Origin: SAR92 bacterium BACL16 MAG-120619-bin48
GTDB taxonomy: Bacteria; Pseudomonadota; Gammaproteobacteria; Pseudomonadales; Porticoccaceae
DNA: 64,000 bases
Assembly: GCA_001438605.1 (NCBI GenBank)
Contig: LIDE01000005.1
Coordinates: forward strand, 1 to 64,000
Reading direction: 5' to 3'
How positions within the stretch are numbered: position 1 is the first letter of the stretch; every line of letters begins with the position of its first letter. The position numbers and the translations under genes were made by a program. The notes below the pieces were generated by a model that had not been told where the DNA came from, did no database searches, and saw only the letters and a list, made by a program, of their open reading frames with translations. Shown here in pieces: positions 2,835-8,350 of the stretch.

Positions 2835-5126
2835 GTGAATAGTCTGCGCAACCCTACCCTGATCGTTTTAGCCATTGCCGTCGCTGTTGCATTAGGCTTC
2901 GCGGTGTATTTAGCTGACCAAGACACAGGGGCACTCGATAGCGTGAACGGAGCCGTTCACCGAGAGACCGACGGCAATATTGTTCGGCAAACTGACGAGT
3001 ACTTGGGCAGTGCTAGCTGCGGCGGCTGCCATGAGAAACAATACAGTGATTGGCGCGGGTCGCACCACGAGCAGGCTATGCAGCATGCCTCTGCGACAAC
3101 GGTGAAGGGGAATTTTGCTAACACCTCTTTTGTCAGTGACGCTGTGTCTGTCTCCTTTACCCAGAAAAAAGACGGCTTTTATGCGCGTCTGGCGGGCACA
3201 GACAGCGTTGAACATGACTATAAGGTGCTCTATACCTTTGGCACTGAGCCCTTGCAGCAATATCTGGTCGCGTTTCCCGACGGTCGGCTTCAGCAATTGC
3301 CGGTGGCGTGGGACACCCAATCACAGCAGTGGTTTGATCCGCAACCGACGCTGAAAGCTCGACCGGGGGAGTGGGTGCATTGGACTGAGGGTGGGAAAAA
3401 CTGGAACAGTATGTGCGCCGACTGTCACAGTACGGCTGTGGCGAAAAATTTTAGTGCCGTCGAGAATCGCTATGACACGGCGGTTGAAGAGATTAGCGTT
3501 GGCTGTGAGTCCTGTCATGGGCCCGGTCGTGATCATCAACAAGCGGTGCTCAATGGTGCTATAGCCGGGTTGGGCGATTTAAAAATTGATGCCATGAGTG
3601 CAGCCAATCCACAGCTCATGGTCGACAATTGCGGTCGCTGCCATGCGCGGCGTCAGGCAATTACCGAAAAATTTGAACATGGTAGCAATACCTTGCTCGA
3701 CCATTATTTGCCGAGCCTATTAAACCCTCCCCTCTACCACAGCGATGGCCAGATTCTGGATGAGGTATTTGTGTATGGTTCTTTTTTGCAAAGCAAAATG
3801 TATGCGGCGGGCGTGAGTTGCGTCAATTGTCATGAGCCTCATAGCGCGCGGTTAAAGGGAGAGGGCAATCAGCTTTGTACCGGCTGCCACAGCGCGGCCG
3901 AGTTCGACAGTCCCCAACACCATCATCACAGCGAGACGGCGGCTCTCGCTGCAGGTAATCAGTGCATTGATTGCCATATGCCGGGTCGCTTGTATATGGG
4001 TAACGATTTTCGTCGCGATCACAGCTTCCGTGTTCCGCGCCCTGACCTGAGCGTGGCTCACGCGACGCCAAATGCCTGCACGGGCTGCCACACAGATGAA
4101 ACTGATACATGGGCGGCGGACAATGTGGTGTCGTGGTTTGGCCTCGTTCGCGCGAGCCATTTTTCCGATGTTCTAACGGCGGCGCAAAGCCATCCCCGCG
4201 AGTCTTTGGGGCTGCTCGTTACGCTGCTCAAGGACCTGTCGCAGCCGGCGATTGCGAGGGCGACGGCAGCGTCTCAATTGGCGCCAGCGATCGCCGTTGA
4301 TGGTGTTGAAGAGGCTGTAACAAGCGCCCTACAAGATTTACACCCACTGGTGCGGGCGTCCGCTGCTTCAGCGCTAGCGCAAGCGTCACTGCCTCAGCGT
4401 CTAGCTCCGTTGGCACCATTATTGGATGATCCTGTGCGGGCGGTGCGCATTGCCGCGGCACAGGCTTTGATTAATGCACCCCCAATGCGCATACCAAACC
4501 AATTCCGCGAGAGTTTCCGCCTGGCCAATATTGAATACCAGTCATCATTGATGGCCAATAGTGACTTCCCCACGGGGCGTTTGCAGATGGCTATCGACGC
4601 TCACCGCGGAGGTGATGAACAGGCGGCGGAAGGACACTATCTGGCAGCCGTGGCAATTGATAATCACCTGAATGCCGCACGCATGAACTTGGCACAGCTC
4701 TACTACAATCAGGGTCGACTGGCGGATGCTGAGGCGCTGTATCGGACGACTATTACTCAGGAACCCAATGCCAGTGAGGCGTTTTACGCGCTGGGACTGC
4801 TTCTCGCAGAGCAGCGACACTTTGGCGAAGCTGCCCAGATGTTGCGAAGTGCTGCCACCCTCGGCAACAATCCGCGAGCGTGGTACAACCTTGCGGTGCT
4901 CTATCAACAAACGGGCAATCCCGAAATGGCTGAAAAAAGCTACTTGCAGGCACTGCAGTTAGCGCCGGGGAACAGTGATTTTACGGTCGGATTAGTCAGT
5001 CTCTATAGCCAACAAGGTCTGACAAAAAAGGCCCTGGCAACGGTTGCGCAGGGCCTTGTGTTTGCACCGCACGACAGCCGGTTACTGCAGGCGCGAGAAG
5101 CCCTGCAACGCGCCGCCGCAAACTGA
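2835..5126 (+). CDS. Octahaem c-type cytochrome with HEAT-like and TPR repeats
   Basis: A 763-residue protein starting with GTG. An N-terminal hydrophobic helix (residues about 8-26) anchors or exports it to the periplasm. Eight CxxCH haem-binding motifs follow, at Cys62, 194, 224, 266, 329, 348, 377 and 415, in a cytochrome c554-like layout (YLGSASCGGCHEKQYSDW). Residues about 440-560 form Ala/Leu-rich HEAT-like helical repeats (DDPVRAVRIAAAQALI), and about 575-760 form TPR repeats (LAQLYYNQGRLADAEALY, WYNLAVLYQQTGNPEMAEKSY). The haem part suggests periplasmic electron transfer, and the repeats suggest docking to a partner. The substrate is unknown. It lies next to the accessory patch and runs convergently into an alkaline phosphatase with a single base between the two stop codons, so no separate terminator exists. 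Confidence 0.9.
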   Translation: MNSLRNPTLIVLAIAVAVALGFAVYLADQDTGALDSVNGAVHRETDGNIVRQTDEYLGSASCGGCHEKQYSDWRGSHHEQAMQHASATTVKGNFANTSFVSDAVSVSFTQKKDGFYARLAGTDSVEHDYKVLYTFGTEPLQQYLVAFPDGRLQQLPVAWDTQSQQWFDPQPTLKARPGEWVHWTEGGKNWNSMCADCHSTAVAKNFSAVENRYDTAVEEISVGCESCHGPGRDHQQAVLNGAIAGLGDLKIDAMSAANPQLMVDNCGRCHARRQAITEKFEHGSNTLLDHYLPSLLNPPLYHSDGQILDEVFVYGSFLQSKMYAAGVSCVNCHEPHSARLKGEGNQLCTGCHSAAEFDSPQHHHHSETAALAAGNQCIDCHMPGRLYMGNDFRRDHSFRVPRPDLSVAHATPNACTGCHTDETDTWAADNVVSWFGLVRASHFSDVLTAAQSHPRESLGLLVTLLKDLSQPAIARATAASQLAPAIAVDGVEEAVTSALQDLHPLVRASAASALAQASLPQRLAPLAPLLDDPVRAVRIAAAQALINAPPMRIPNQFRESFRLANIEYQSSLMANSDFPTGRLQMAIDAHRGGDEQAAEGHYLAAVAIDNHLNAARMNLAQLYYNQGRLADAEALYRTTITQEPNASEAFYALGLLLAEQRHFGEAAQMLRSAATLGNNPRAWYNLAVLYQQTGNPEMAEKSYLQALQLAPGNSDFTVGLVSLYSQQGLTKKALATVAQGLVFAPHDSRLLQAREALQRAAAN

Positions 5127-5127
5127 G

Positions 5128-6780
5128 TTATTGCAGCGCGGCTGAGGCTCTCTCCAGCAGGTTTCCTGCGTAATTCATCACATGAAAAACGATGGTCTGC
5201 TCATGGCTGCCGGTCACCAGATGGGCGCCTGGGCCGGTGGCGTAAATGGCCACATCTTCACCCCCGTGGGTTTCTGCGACGCCCGGCACCAAGACTTCTT
5301 GATGAAAGCCCTGCGTTTCGGTATCGATATTTGTCAGATCCTGACGGCCAGGTGTTGGCTTGCTGTAATAGGTGCGATCGGCATCGGTCTCGTCACCCAA
5401 ATCGCGAAAACCAGAGCCATTGGCGTAACCGAGCGTGGTGTAGGGAAGTCCGTCTGCGGCAAGTTCAGGAGCCTCTGACCCGACGCTAATCACTTTACCC
5501 AAAATCGGATTACCGCGCTTTGGATAACCGGCCATGGTGAACGCGTGGCTGTGGTCTGCGGTAACAATAATCAGCGTCTCCGCTGGATTGGTCGCCTCCA
5601 GCGCCGCTTGAACGGCCCGCGAAAACTCGCTGGTTTCGGTCAATGCAGTCGCGGCGCTGCCAGCGTGATGGCCATGATCAATGCGCCCACTTTCGACCAT
5701 AAGAAAAAAGCCCGCGTCATTTTTATCAAGAATATCAATCGCCTTGACCGTCATTTCAGTCAGCGAAGGCTCGCCCGCGATATCCTTGGAACGGTCTGCC
5801 TCGTAGCGCATGTGGGATTCACTAAACAAACCGAACAACTGGGTTGTCGTGTCGCTGTTCACTGCATCAAAGGCCGCTTGATTGTCCACATAGACGCCTG
5901 TTGGATAAGCCGCCTTCCATTCTTGCACAAGATTGCGGCCGTCAGTGCGATCACCCTCAATCGGGCTGTCGGCATCGCGGCTGTTGGCCTCTGGTTGATT
6001 GGGCAGGAACTCGCGACGACCACCGCCTAGCACAACCTCTAGACCGTTACTGTTGAGACCCCCATAGCGCGCATCAAGATTGGCTTTAAAATTCACTAAC
6101 TGAGAGGCGATATCCTCACACCCTGACGCGACAGCCGCCGCCGGCAATTTTGAATTATTTTCCCAGTCGCGGTCTGCCGACTTAGCGTAGGTTGCTGCAG
6201 GGGTCGCATGGGTAATACGGGCTGTGGACACGATACCGGTAGCAAGACCGGCAATTTCGGCCAGCTCAAGTGCGGTAAATACCTGACTGCCGGCCACCGA
6301 TGAACAGTCACCGCGAACCACGTTTTCATCCACACCAATAGTTCCAGCATCTGTTTTAACACCGCTAATTAGCGCCGTCATGGTGCCCGCAGAGTCTGGC
6401 GTCTGAGCATCGACATTATAGGTTTTGGACAAACCCACAAACGGAAAACGGCCAAAGCTGAGACTATTTTCTTCCCCCAATAGGCCTTTCTTTTGGCCGT
6501 CGAAAATACGTGCGGCGGTCACCGTTGACACGCCCATGCCATCGCCCACAAACAGAATGATATTTTTAGCAGAACCGCGCTGTGTTGCAACGCGCTGCAC
6601 CTGTTCGTTGGTCTGCTGTACAGCAGCGGCTGTCTCGACAAACCATTGATTATCTGTAGTTTTAGCCAGCGCAGCCTGCGCCGCATTGGGCGCGGTGGTC
6701 GCAGATTGAGTGGCAAGCTGATCACAGCCGGTGACCGCGACGGACAAAGAGAGCAGGCAAACTGAAGCGACGTTATTCAT
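5128..6780 (-). CDS. Alkaline phosphatase (PhoA superfamily), probable lipoprotein
   Basis: A 550-residue phosphomonoesterase. Metal and catalytic motifs are present: FVGDGMG (Asp80), the nucleophile motif TPDSAGT (Ser130), THATPAATYA, VESGRIDHGHHAG, TADHSHAF and the late ETHGGEDV histidine. The N-terminus has a lipobox, AVTGC with Cys19, followed by Asp20; in E. coli an Asp at +2 acts as a Lol-avoidance signal that keeps lipoproteins in the inner membrane. It probably releases phosphate from organic esters in the periplasm. The upstream 96 bp holds a perfect 14-bp palindrome, but I could not see a convincing Pho box. It is convergent with the octahaem cytochrome. Confidence 0.93.
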   Translation of the reverse strand: MNNVASVCLLSLSVAVTGCDQLATQSATTAPNAAQAALAKTTDNQWFVETAAAVQQTNEQVQRVATQRGSAKNIILFVGDGMGVSTVTAARIFDGQKKGLLGEENSLSFGRFPFVGLSKTYNVDAQTPDSAGTMTALISGVKTDAGTIGVDENVVRGDCSSVAGSQVFTALELAEIAGLATGIVSTARITHATPAATYAKSADRDWENNSKLPAAAVASGCEDIASQLVNFKANLDARYGGLNSNGLEVVLGGGRREFLPNQPEANSRDADSPIEGDRTDGRNLVQEWKAAYPTGVYVDNQAAFDAVNSDTTTQLFGLFSESHMRYEADRSKDIAGEPSLTEMTVKAIDILDKNDAGFFLMVESGRIDHGHHAGSAATALTETSEFSRAVQAALEATNPAETLIIVTADHSHAFTMAGYPKRGNPILGKVISVGSEAPELAADGLPYTTLGYANGSGFRDLGDETDADRTYYSKPTPGRQDLTNIDTETQGFHQEVLVPGVAETHGGEDVAIYATGPGAHLVTGSHEQTIVFHVMNYAGNLLERASAALQ

Positions 6781-6842
6781 ACATAATCCTGAGTATTTTT
6801 ATTGTTATCTCAATGGGGAGTTACTGGCGCAGCAGATAGTAA

Positions 6843-6856
6843 GGCACGGCCGTGCC
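6843..6856. promoter_or_regulatory. Perfect 14-bp palindrome GGCACGGCCGTGCC
   Basis: This self-complementary 14-mer lies between the HTH gene (its 3' side) and the phosphatase start, about 60 bp before the phosphatase ATG. No T-run follows on the minus strand, so an operator is more likely than a terminator. Function is inferred from position only. Confidence 0.4.
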
Positions 6857-6876
6857 ACAAACAAGAAAGGTGTTGG

Positions 6877-7128
6877 TTAATCGAAATGAAGTAATTGATC
6901 AATGCTCAGATTGTGAGCTTTGGCGATTTTGAATAACTGCCAAAGAGAGACGATCGCTCTCGGATCCTGCTCCATGCGCTGATATTGACGCACCGAGAGT
7001 TCATAATCAGCCATATCCTCTTGCACGAGATGACGCTCATTTCGCAGCGCCACAATGCGCTTCTGCAAATTCTCTTGGAACTGCAAAAACTCGGCGTAAT
7101 AAATTGAGTCGGCATTTGGGCGCTGCAT
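6877..7128 (-). CDS. Small helix-turn-helix (XRE/Cro-like) DNA-binding protein
   Basis: An 83-residue protein. Residues about 18-80 fit the HTH_3 fold: RIVALRNERHLVQEDMADY as helices 1-2, SVRQYQRMEQDPRAIVS as recognition and following helix, and a final helix LWQLFKIAKAHNLSIDQLL. No sensor domain is present. The ATG at 7128 has no obvious Shine-Dalgarno. It is divergent from a Cys-rich lipoprotein gene whose promoter-like spacer carries a 12-bp palindrome, and a second palindrome lies on its other side, so local autoregulation is plausible. The fold call is fairly secure; the target sites are inference. Confidence 0.75.
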   Translation of the reverse strand: MQRPNADSIYYAEFLQFQENLQKRIVALRNERHLVQEDMADYELSVRQYQRMEQDPRAIVSLWQLFKIAKAHNLSIDQLLHFD

Positions 7129-7149
7129 AACGAATTGGCTAATTTCCTA

Positions 7150-7178
7150 TTGACCTAAGCCGCCAAGCTTGGCATATT
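7150..7178 (+). promoter_or_regulatory. Promoter with palindromic operator GCCAAGCTTGGC in the spacer
   Basis: TTGACC (7150-7155) and CATATT (7173-7178) are 17 bp apart, a good sigma-70 layout. A perfect 12-bp palindrome occupies 7162-7173, inside the spacer and touching the -10. That is the usual position for a repressor operator. It would serve the lipoprotein gene starting at 7272, and lies 22 bp upstream of the divergent HTH gene. Confidence 0.5.
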
Positions 7179-7271
7179 CAAAAACACCACAACACGCCAC
7201 GCTTGGCGCGAAAAAGTGGTGCGACAAGGAGTCGCTTAATCACGCCAATTAACCAGCAGGGAGCTCACAAA

Positions 7272-7688
7272 GTGACAGTAAAATCACCCGCGAAAAAAGC
7301 ATCGCCACATCTTCTAGTTATCAGTATTCTCTTTTCTACACTCTTACTTGGCTGCGCCACCACCGGCGATTCACCGAGCTATTACTTGGACTCCTACACG
7401 CAAATGCGTAGCGCCGTCTTTACACAGCGCGAGCTAATCAACACTGAATTATCAGAGCCCAGCAAGGTCAATCAAGCGTCTCGAACATCGCTGATCAACA
7501 GCTACTGCGACTTAGTTGACCGAGGCATCATTTATGTCTCCGCGGAGAATGTACCCCCTTCATGCCAAGGGGAAACCCACAAAACCCGAACCTGCGCGAT
7601 GAAATTTCATCAGTGTGCCAGCCGCTGCGCCCTGCGCAGCAACGACTGCCAGCCCTGCATTGAAAGTTCGAACACGTGCCTTAACTAG
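7272..7688 (+). CDS. Cysteine-rich lipoprotein, unknown function
   Basis: I chose the GTG at 7272 because AGGGAG lies 8 nt upstream; a longer TTG start at 7203 lacks a ribosome site and would bury the signal peptide. The 138-residue product has a basic N-terminus, a hydrophobic core (LLVISILFSTLLLGC) and lipobox Cys28 followed by Ala-Thr, consistent with an outer-membrane lipoprotein. The last 65 residues hold eight cysteines (for example KFHQCASRCALRSNDCQPC), suggesting disulfides or metal binding. I recognise no family. It is divergent from the small HTH gene and convergent with GST. Confidence 0.75.
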   Translation: MTVKSPAKKASPHLLVISILFSTLLLGCATTGDSPSYYLDSYTQMRSAVFTQRELINTELSEPSKVNQASRTSLINSYCDLVDRGIIYVSAENVPPSCQGETHKTRTCAMKFHQCASRCALRSNDCQPCIESSNTCLN

Positions 7689-7720
7689 CCAGCCAAATCC
7701 ACTGCCGCGTGGCCTCTGCC

Positions 7721-8350
7721 TTAAGCAGGACCGTAAGCGTAGAGGCCGCCTTTTTTCAGTGCCGCAAGATAAGCCGGTCGCTGCTGAAAGCGCGCGCGGT
7801 AGGCTGAGATATTGGGCAAGCTCAATTGGGCTCCGAGCAGCGGTGCTATTTCGGCAACAAAGGACATCTGTATATCCGCCCCAGTTAGTTGGTTGCCCAC
7901 CAACCAGTCAACATTGTGCAGAGCCTGTTCAACGAAACCGAGGTGGCGCTGCAATTCATCGGCAATACGCGGCTGCAGAGGGGCGCCGCCATCCGGCAGC
8001 TTGGAGGTGTACATTTTTAACATCAACGGCAGCATAGCACTGCCTTCAGCGTAGTGAAGCCACTGCAGGTACTGCTCGTACTCAGGAGTATCGCAGGCGG
8101 GCAACAGGCGGCCATTGCCGTAGTGACGGAGGATGTAGTCAATAATGGCGCCGGACTCGATCACAGTCTGCGCGCCATCAGTGAGCACCGGCGACTTACC
8201 CAACGGGTGAATCGCCTCCAGCGCTAAAGGCGCCAAATTCGTCACGGGGTCGCGCTGATAACTCTCTATTTTGTAATCAATGCCTAACTCTTCAAGCAAC
8301 CAGAGCACACGCTGTGAGCGCGAATTATTGAGGTGATGGACAGTCAACAT
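7721..8350 (-). CDS. gst: Glutathione S-transferase family protein
   Basis: A 209-residue protein with the N-terminal thioredoxin-like GST domain: NNSRSQRVLWLLEELGIDY at the start, cis-Pro loop GKSPVLTDG and the glutathione-contact ESGAIIDYIL at about residues 65-74. An all-helical C-terminal domain follows from about 90. It probably conjugates glutathione to electrophiles or reduces peroxides; the substrate cannot be predicted. It is a single gene, convergent with the Cys-rich lipoprotein and divergent from rlmA. Confidence 0.92.
   Translation of the reverse strand: MLTVHHLNNSRSQRVLWLLEELGIDYKIESYQRDPVTNLAPLALEAIHPLGKSPVLTDGAQTVIESGAIIDYILRHYGNGRLLPACDTPEYEQYLQWLHYAEGSAMLPLMLKMYTSKLPDGGAPLQPRIADELQRHLGFVEQALHNVDWLVGNQLTGADIQMSFVAEIAPLLGAQLSLPNISAYRARFQQRPAYLAALKKGGLYAYGPA

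Follow-up and report, generated by a model that had tools for sequence, protein, structure and literature searches.

A probable single-target switch in the SAR92 clade: a small XRE-type regulator with two putative operators, divergent from a cysteine-rich lipoprotein gene

The window, a stretch of 64,000 nucleotides from a genome of the SAR92/HTCC2207 group, contains a gene for an 83-aa helix-turn-helix (HTH) regulator (6877-7128, minus strand, from the ORF list) that is divergent from a gene for a cysteine-rich lipoprotein (7272-7688, plus strand), with two palindromic sites in the gap between them. The most likely start of the lipoprotein is GTG 7272, giving 138 aa, because its Shine-Dalgarno sequence is kept in relatives. 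A promoter scan places a sigma-70-type promoter for this gene at 7150-7178 on the plus strand (TTGACC, 17 bp, and CATATT with an extended -10 TG), one of three sigma-70-like matches in 6700-7800, where shuffled sequences give a mean of 0.7. Site 1, the candidate operator GCCAAGCTTGGC (7162-7173), is a perfect palindrome in the spacer between the -35 and -10 hexamers; it fills 11 bp of that spacer (7156-7172), its last C is common to the -10 hexamer, and its right arm supplies the extended -10 TG. Site 2, the candidate operator GCCACGCTTGGC (7196-7207), is a near-copy of site 1 whose center is 34 bp away, ∼12-23 nt downstream of the probable start of the lipoprotein transcript. These are the only matches at one mismatch or fewer in the 64 kb; by count alone the pair is only mildly unusual (shuffles give a mean of 0.32, and 4 of 100 reach two), and it is conservation and position, described below, that set it beyond chance. 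The first-pass annotation had correctly located the HTH ORF, the palindromes at 6843-6856 and 7162-7173, and the promoter with its 17-bp spacer, as well as a lipoprotein carrying eight cysteines beyond the lipobox, whose start we have moved to GTG 7272. Its inventory of palindromes was right to place 7162-7173 inside the promoter spacer, but overlooked the near-copy at 7196-7207.

The HTH protein is modeled by AlphaFold2 with a pLDDT of 93.6 as a compact five-helix XRE/Cro-type fold (helices 11-31, 36-42, 46-54, 62-71, and 76-80). Foldseek ranks DdrO first, with C.BclI, C.AhdI, C.Esp1396I, and SinR lower among the 50 matches listed; the matches, 434 Cro included, have probability 1.00, yet E of 0.01 or more. 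Family libraries do not name the protein: the Pfam family HTH_3 (PF01381) scores 18.6 bits (E 0.002) against a curated cut-off of 23, and the best NCBIfam match, NF041951 (RstR family), scores 32.1 bits against a cut-off of 80, with 32 of 33 HTH rows matching it at E up to 0.001. In the region of the recognition helix, S[VIL]RQYQR[MI]E is present in all 33 aligned HTH rows, and the HTH sequence of the window has no cysteine. Kinship with QseC, raised by a PDB profile match (E 7.9e-7), was set aside; the corresponding single-sequence alignment to 9xz9 starts in residues resembling a TEV tag. We also rejected a phage or plasmid origin of the unit, since HTH relatives were found neither in viral contigs, nor in 50,697 phage records, nor in plasmids, and the lipoprotein had no match in plasmids; nor is there a phage structural gene among the identified neighbors of the HTH gene. 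Separately, a gene of the tyrosine recombinase/phage-integrase family lies at 927-1907, shortly after the end of rpoD and 5 kb from the HTH gene, and may mark an island border.

The lipoprotein has the lipobox LLGC at Cys28 after a hydrophobic stretch, in agreement with the pattern [LVI]-x-[GAS]-C. In an alignment of 21 rows (A2, which leaves out the broken copy of G028 and the contig-cut copy of G012; a 19-row version restricted to named loci, A3, additionally leaves out G022 and G009), Cys28 is invariant (21/21), as are seven of the cysteines beyond it (21/21), while Cys136 is present in 20 of 21 rows; His113 is invariant too. The residue after Cys28 is never Asp, which under the +2 rule points to the outer membrane as the probable location. 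AlphaFold2 models the mature protein as four helices (pLDDT 90.4). The final six cysteines (C-x6-C-x3-C-x6-C-x2-C-x6-C) are located on or next to the last two helices, and their register is antiparallel, with paired positions summing to 190, 190, and 191 in mature numbering. This spacing, as distinct from coordinates, points to three nested disulfides plus one more linking Cys52 and Cys71 (mature numbering); the expected pairs are 108-136, 115-129, 119-126, and 79-98 when counted on the precursor. Such a pattern fits a disulfide-stapled helical hairpin, with the cysteines in a structural role. The fold has no match at E up to 0.001 in the PDB or BFVD (best Z 3.3), which does not show it to be new; the sequence has no PDB match at E up to 1, and a Pfam scan of 21 members gave just three unrelated one-member matches, at E 0.038 or more. 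Both genes evolve under constraint: among 13 chosen pairs, dN/dS is 0.10-0.31 for the lipoprotein in the 11 that were computable, and 0-0.06 for the HTH protein in 10 (the HTH of L118 is a distal copy, so that its pair is not orthologous; its value was not computable). The idea of positive selection on the lipoprotein was therefore dropped; it evolves faster than the HTH protein and still under purifying selection. As a guess, its looser constraint and lipid anchor would be in keeping with an exposed position in the envelope.

We searched 143 genomes of relatives, the window genome included. The HTH gene occurs in 27 of them, 24 from the genus of the window genome and 3 from genus g11, and the lipoprotein in 23, all of the former genus and none in other genera. 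By profile, a full HTH orthologue is present in 24 of 50 genus genomes, while the profile matches of three more, to generic HTH proteins, all have E above 1e-5. Among the 23 loci found by the HTH profile are those of the SAR92-clade isolates HTCC2207, MOLA455, H231, and H921; the others belong to MAGs bearing the name Porticoccaceae, Pseudomonadales, or Gammaproteobacteria. The lipoprotein gene adjoins the HTH gene divergently in 22 of the 24 genus genomes that possess the latter (the window genome included), so that the adjacency predicted from the single locus holds in all 22 genomes showing both genes. The remaining two (G025 and G048) have the HTH gene without the lipoprotein; in G009 the lipoprotein gene stands at a contig end with the HTH side out of view, in G028 it is broken, and in G012 it is truncated by the contig end. 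A search for lipoprotein remnants beside the HTH genes of L123 and L125 gave nothing convincing (best E 0.04). Farther afield, among 369 genomes of the class, the HTH profile at E up to 1e-12 retrieves the window genome alone (1/369), and the lipoprotein profile retrieves, besides the window genome, a single 28-residue piece in G285. This piece (L128, 1-110) lies at a contig edge of a distant gammaproteobacterial genome, is perhaps misbinned, and is absent from four relatives of G285.

The gene pair is found in two contexts, cytochrome-phoA-HTH/lipoprotein-(GST)-RlmA-like-kinase-purA and phoA-HTH(-HTH)/lipoprotein-soxG-soxA, with single genes absent in some genomes. The identified neighbors, which represent only part of the ORFs, are accordingly phoA, GST, an RlmA-like rRNA methyltransferase, a kinase, a multihaem cytochrome, and purA, or soxG and soxA. 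The cytochrome gene of the window (2835-5126), which adjoins phoA, encodes a large multihaem c554-like protein with HEAT and TPR repeats, in a neighborhood kept in many relatives.

Both sites are conserved beyond their surroundings. Site 1 is exact, as GCCAAG[C/G]TTGGC, in 17 of 22 lipoprotein-bearing gaps, and in G048, which lacks the lipoprotein. G013 has one change in the right arm, and the left arm has one change in G020 and G040 and two in G012 and G029; these last four retain the promoter hexamers. The expectation that the palindrome would be kept wherever the promoter is kept was thus borne out in most gaps and not in all. Across 20 rows, which stem from related genomes and are hence not independent, mean pairwise identity is 0.908 for site 1, 0.81 for site 2 (over 7194-7209), 0.919 for TTGACC, and 0.983 for CATATT. 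Lower values are seen in the HTH leader (0.566), in the left spacer (0.42), between the two sites (0.485), and immediately downstream (0.306); TTGAC is invariant at -35 (20/20). Four-fold codon sites of the HTH gene give 0.485 (17 rows, leaving out the broken copies L117, L120, and L124), so both sites are more conserved than these. The identity figures leave out row P_L125, which has an 18-bp insertion between the sites; two gaps that enter the count of 22, that of G022 (with an exact site 1) and the one on the lipoprotein side of G020 (degraded site 1), are likewise absent from the 20 proximal loci of the identity and spacing sets.

The 16-mer CCAAGSTTGGCATATT occurs once each in 16 of the 143 genomes, always in the HTH-lipoprotein gap, with no match to a reversed-pattern control among the rows listed. 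A scan of 48 genus genomes for a two-site pattern with up to one mismatch gives 30 matches, spread over 23 genomes, and each stands just upstream of an HTH copy (four of these copies, in G012, G020, G028, and G029, are broken). At two mismatches there are 13 matches, 1 at an HTH copy and 12 elsewhere; the latter do not exceed the 22 matches of the reversed control at up to two mismatches, and we accordingly rejected a genome-wide regulon. The window genome has three further single-site places, all inside ORFs. In the genomes scanned we thus see no evidence for further targets of the HTH protein.

The other palindrome, GGCACGGCCGTGCC at 6843-6856, is real, but its proposed membership in the regulator-operator unit did not survive comparison: the 13 HTH-phoA gaps that we looked at in relatives contain neither GGCACGGCCGTGCC nor GGCAC-N4-GTGCC (gaps with phoA ∼3 kb away were left out), and we discarded it as an operator. 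It was discarded as a terminator too, the sole terminator-like match of 6700-7800 lying elsewhere, where shuffles give 1.6. On the same side of the HTH gene, the HTH-phoA gaps of L104-L107 and L111 contain TGTCATAAT before phoA, which we take to resemble half a Pho box; by eye, the window has none.

HTH genes are duplicated in tandem in eight named loci, with one copy broken in some. Eleven HTH copies have no lipoprotein neighbor (8 distal duplicates and 3 solo copies), and all 11 keep site 2 upstream as ACACG[CT]C...TG[GA]C, which points to a role of site 2 at the HTH gene itself. Most of them also keep TTGNCATA of site 1; a complete site 1 is found only in L126, which has another divergent gene, and none has TTGAC at the -35 place (L126 has TTGATT). 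The two sites together may serve the HTH gene first. In four genomes (G012, G020, G028, and G029) the HTH copy nearest the lipoprotein is broken and a second copy stands behind it. Broken proximal HTH and degraded left arm of site 1 coincide in G012, G020, and G029, whereas in G040 the arm is degraded although the HTH is intact, and in G028 the HTH is frame-shifted although site 1 is exact; the coupling of regulator and operator decay is therefore not strict, and the G028 copy weakens one line of evidence for a switch.

We consider it probable that these elements form a local single-target switch, in which a self-regulating XRE-type repressor with two putative operators controls the divergent lipoprotein gene. 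The HTH protein, probably as a dimer, would bind both palindromes of the divergent gap, whose centers are separated by 34 bp. Bound to site 1, it would sit between the -35 and extended -10 elements of the lipoprotein promoter and obstruct RNA polymerase; because site 2 is situated shortly past the probable lipoprotein start and near the presumed HTH promoter, occupancy of both sites would also set the level of the HTH protein. When HTH activity falls, the lipid-anchored and presumably disulfide-stabilized helical protein would be made. Repression is pointed to by the placement of site 1 between the promoter hexamers, and an operator in a promoter spacer usually means repression; the opposite sign, activation of the lipoprotein promoter by the HTH protein from the spacer site, would be the less usual alternative. 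Autoregulation is pointed to by the presence of sites upstream of HTH copies in general. The regulator-operator-lipoprotein unit of the first-pass annotation is thus upheld by the conservation of the pair and of its sites, shorn of the palindrome at 6843-6856 and of the proposed role in metal or redox biology.

Several other readings bear on this switch. The likeliest of them, which we hold to be possible but distinctly less probable than simple repression, has the HTH protein behave like the C proteins of restriction-modification systems, activating its own gene from site 2 when scarce, and repressing both its own gene and the lipoprotein from site 1 when abundant, with a delayed or bistable output. 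C.BclI, C.AhdI, and C.Esp1396I are indeed among the fold matches, the geometry of the two sites is nearly that of C.Csp231I, and HTH copies still have site 2 upstream when site 1 has decayed; set against this, no restriction-modification gene is among the identified neighbors, and the HTH -10 that it needs, TATG[CA]C, is a guess, with a presumed HTH start ∼38 bp downstream of site 2. In another reading the palindromes serve HTH autoregulation alone, lipoprotein control being incidental through overlapping promoters; the sites do persist where no lipoprotein adjoins, both at the distal and solo copies of the HTH gene and in G048/L125. We judge this unlikely, since lipoprotein-bearing gaps mostly have a complete site 1, centered in the spacer of the lipoprotein promoter, while the 11 solo and distal copies lack TTGAC throughout and, L126 apart, a complete site 1.

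The two remaining readings seem weaker still. A metal-binding or copper-storage-like lipoprotein, with the HTH protein as a metal or redox sensor, could draw on the eight conserved cysteines, the invariant His, the four-helix model, and the copper-storage chains among the weak matches (Foldseek E 4.0-9.8; Z 2.0-2.3), but these fold matches are not significant, the cysteine pattern over the last two helices fits nested disulfides, the HTH protein of the window has no cysteine of its own, and the Pfam scan returned unrelated families; the surface metal or redox protein of the first-pass annotation is thus unsupported, and we regard this reading as quite improbable. That site 2 is an RNA hairpin in the lipoprotein leader we hold to be highly improbable: it lies within the probable transcript and its arms could pair (judged from the letters, unfolded), but HTH genes lacking a divergent lipoprotein keep it upstream as well, and site 1, which is similar, sits in the promoter, outside any such transcript.

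The distance between the sites is itself conserved. Of 32 HTH upstream regions, 31 show no indel between CATATT and site 2; the remaining one, L125, which has no lipoprotein, carries 18 extra bases there. In a paired-dyad scan over all distances of 16-69 bp, whose rows are related, 34 bp has the top mean score in the 21 proximal rows (11.3 versus 10.3 for the next) and in the three rows of g11 (14.0 versus 11.7; a mean as high as that of g11 came up in 0 of 2000 mononucleotide shuffles). Taken singly, 18 of 21 proximal rows and 3 of 3 g11 rows have 34 bp as their best or joint best distance; the other 3 proximal rows score higher at another. In the 11 solo and distal rows as a group, where site 1 is mostly incomplete, 34 bp is not first, and L126 alone is best at this distance.

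The g11 HTH protein (3 genomes) is ∼41% identical and its gene is divergent from that of a small protein of 99-114 aa; the sites of L084, for example, are CATGACATTAATGTCATG and ACGCCATTAATGGCGT, and the half-site ACG[CT]C of site 2 is common to the genus and g11. L126, from a gammaproteobacterial MAG, has the HTH gene and the two sites with the 34-bp spacing; its divergent gene encodes an 89-aa protein that is a weak relative of the g11 small protein (E 7e-4, in a single comparison). The divergent partner therefore differs while regulator and geometry stay. None of five g11 and L126 partners scanned reaches a Pfam cut-off; the L126 protein has two plasmid matches of 34 residues, and the g11 protein none in plasmids. 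As to gene content, L083, L084 (7147-8829), and L085 each have two HTH genes, every one of them paired divergently with a small protein that carries a DEL-AEL-like motif, and a further small gene between. In L126 (2305-5249), the HTH gene and both sites lie near a gene for an AAA_21/AbiEii-type ATPase and a DUF5677-like gene (below cut-off), and this locus is possibly a mobile or defense island. A bolder reading would make the HTH gene and two operators at a fixed 34 bp a portable switch cassette with exchanged output, a small helical protein in g11 and L126 and a fast-evolving, disulfide-rich lipoprotein with no fold match so far in SAR92, forming a C-protein-like, possibly bistable circuit that switches an envelope protein. 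We offer this as speculation, rather unlikely to hold in full.

If the proposed single-target switch holds, a widespread marine clade gains a clean regulon of one, with one regulator, two putative operators, and one lipoprotein family that has no Pfam or PDB match in the searches made; conserved spacing with different outputs would show reuse of a two-operator switch. Even an ordinary locus would leave the regulator, operators, promoter, and start codon firmly annotated for a pair that family libraries leave unnamed. A literature search found no account of divergent XRE/lipoprotein pairs with palindromic operators, or of cysteine-rich four-helix disulfide lipoproteins.

The unit and its parts were compared with several known systems. 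The DNA-binding domains of DdrO and SinR are among the closest solved folds to the HTH protein (50 Foldseek matches listed); DdrO and SinR carry an extra C-terminal domain, whereas the protein here is an HTH plus an N-terminal extension. The RstR phage repressors (NF041951) give its best NCBIfam match, but at 32.1 bits compared to the required 80, and with no match among phage records. On the lipoprotein side, chains of the copper storage proteins (Csp), which are four-helix bundles whose core is lined by cysteines, match only at non-significant E (Z 2.0-2.3), and no Csp family appears in the Pfam scan of 21 members. QseC/QseM of Mesorhizobium ICEs similarly pair a small HTH regulator with control of an adjacent gene, with the HTH often duplicated and decayed (PMC8627217); their partner is an antiactivator on an ICE, whereas here it is a lipoprotein, with no conjugation genes among the identified neighbors, and we do not assign the HTH protein to QseC. 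The unit as a whole looks like known two-operator XRE switches, the nearest being the restriction-modification C proteins (C.Csp231I, C.AhdI, C.Esp1396I, and C.BclI), which are likewise small single-domain XRE-fold regulators with two palindromic operators. C.Csp231I has two 15-bp repeats 18 nt apart, of which the left is needed for activation, and the protein both activates and represses (PMC4824078). By arithmetic its operator spacing is 33 bp, against 34 bp here, about three helical turns in each case. As in those systems, two palindromic operators, recognized here from sequence, lie upstream of the regulator gene; there the regulator is linked to endonuclease and methyltransferase genes, and here, with another operator sequence and a likeness at the level of fold, its partner is a lipoprotein.
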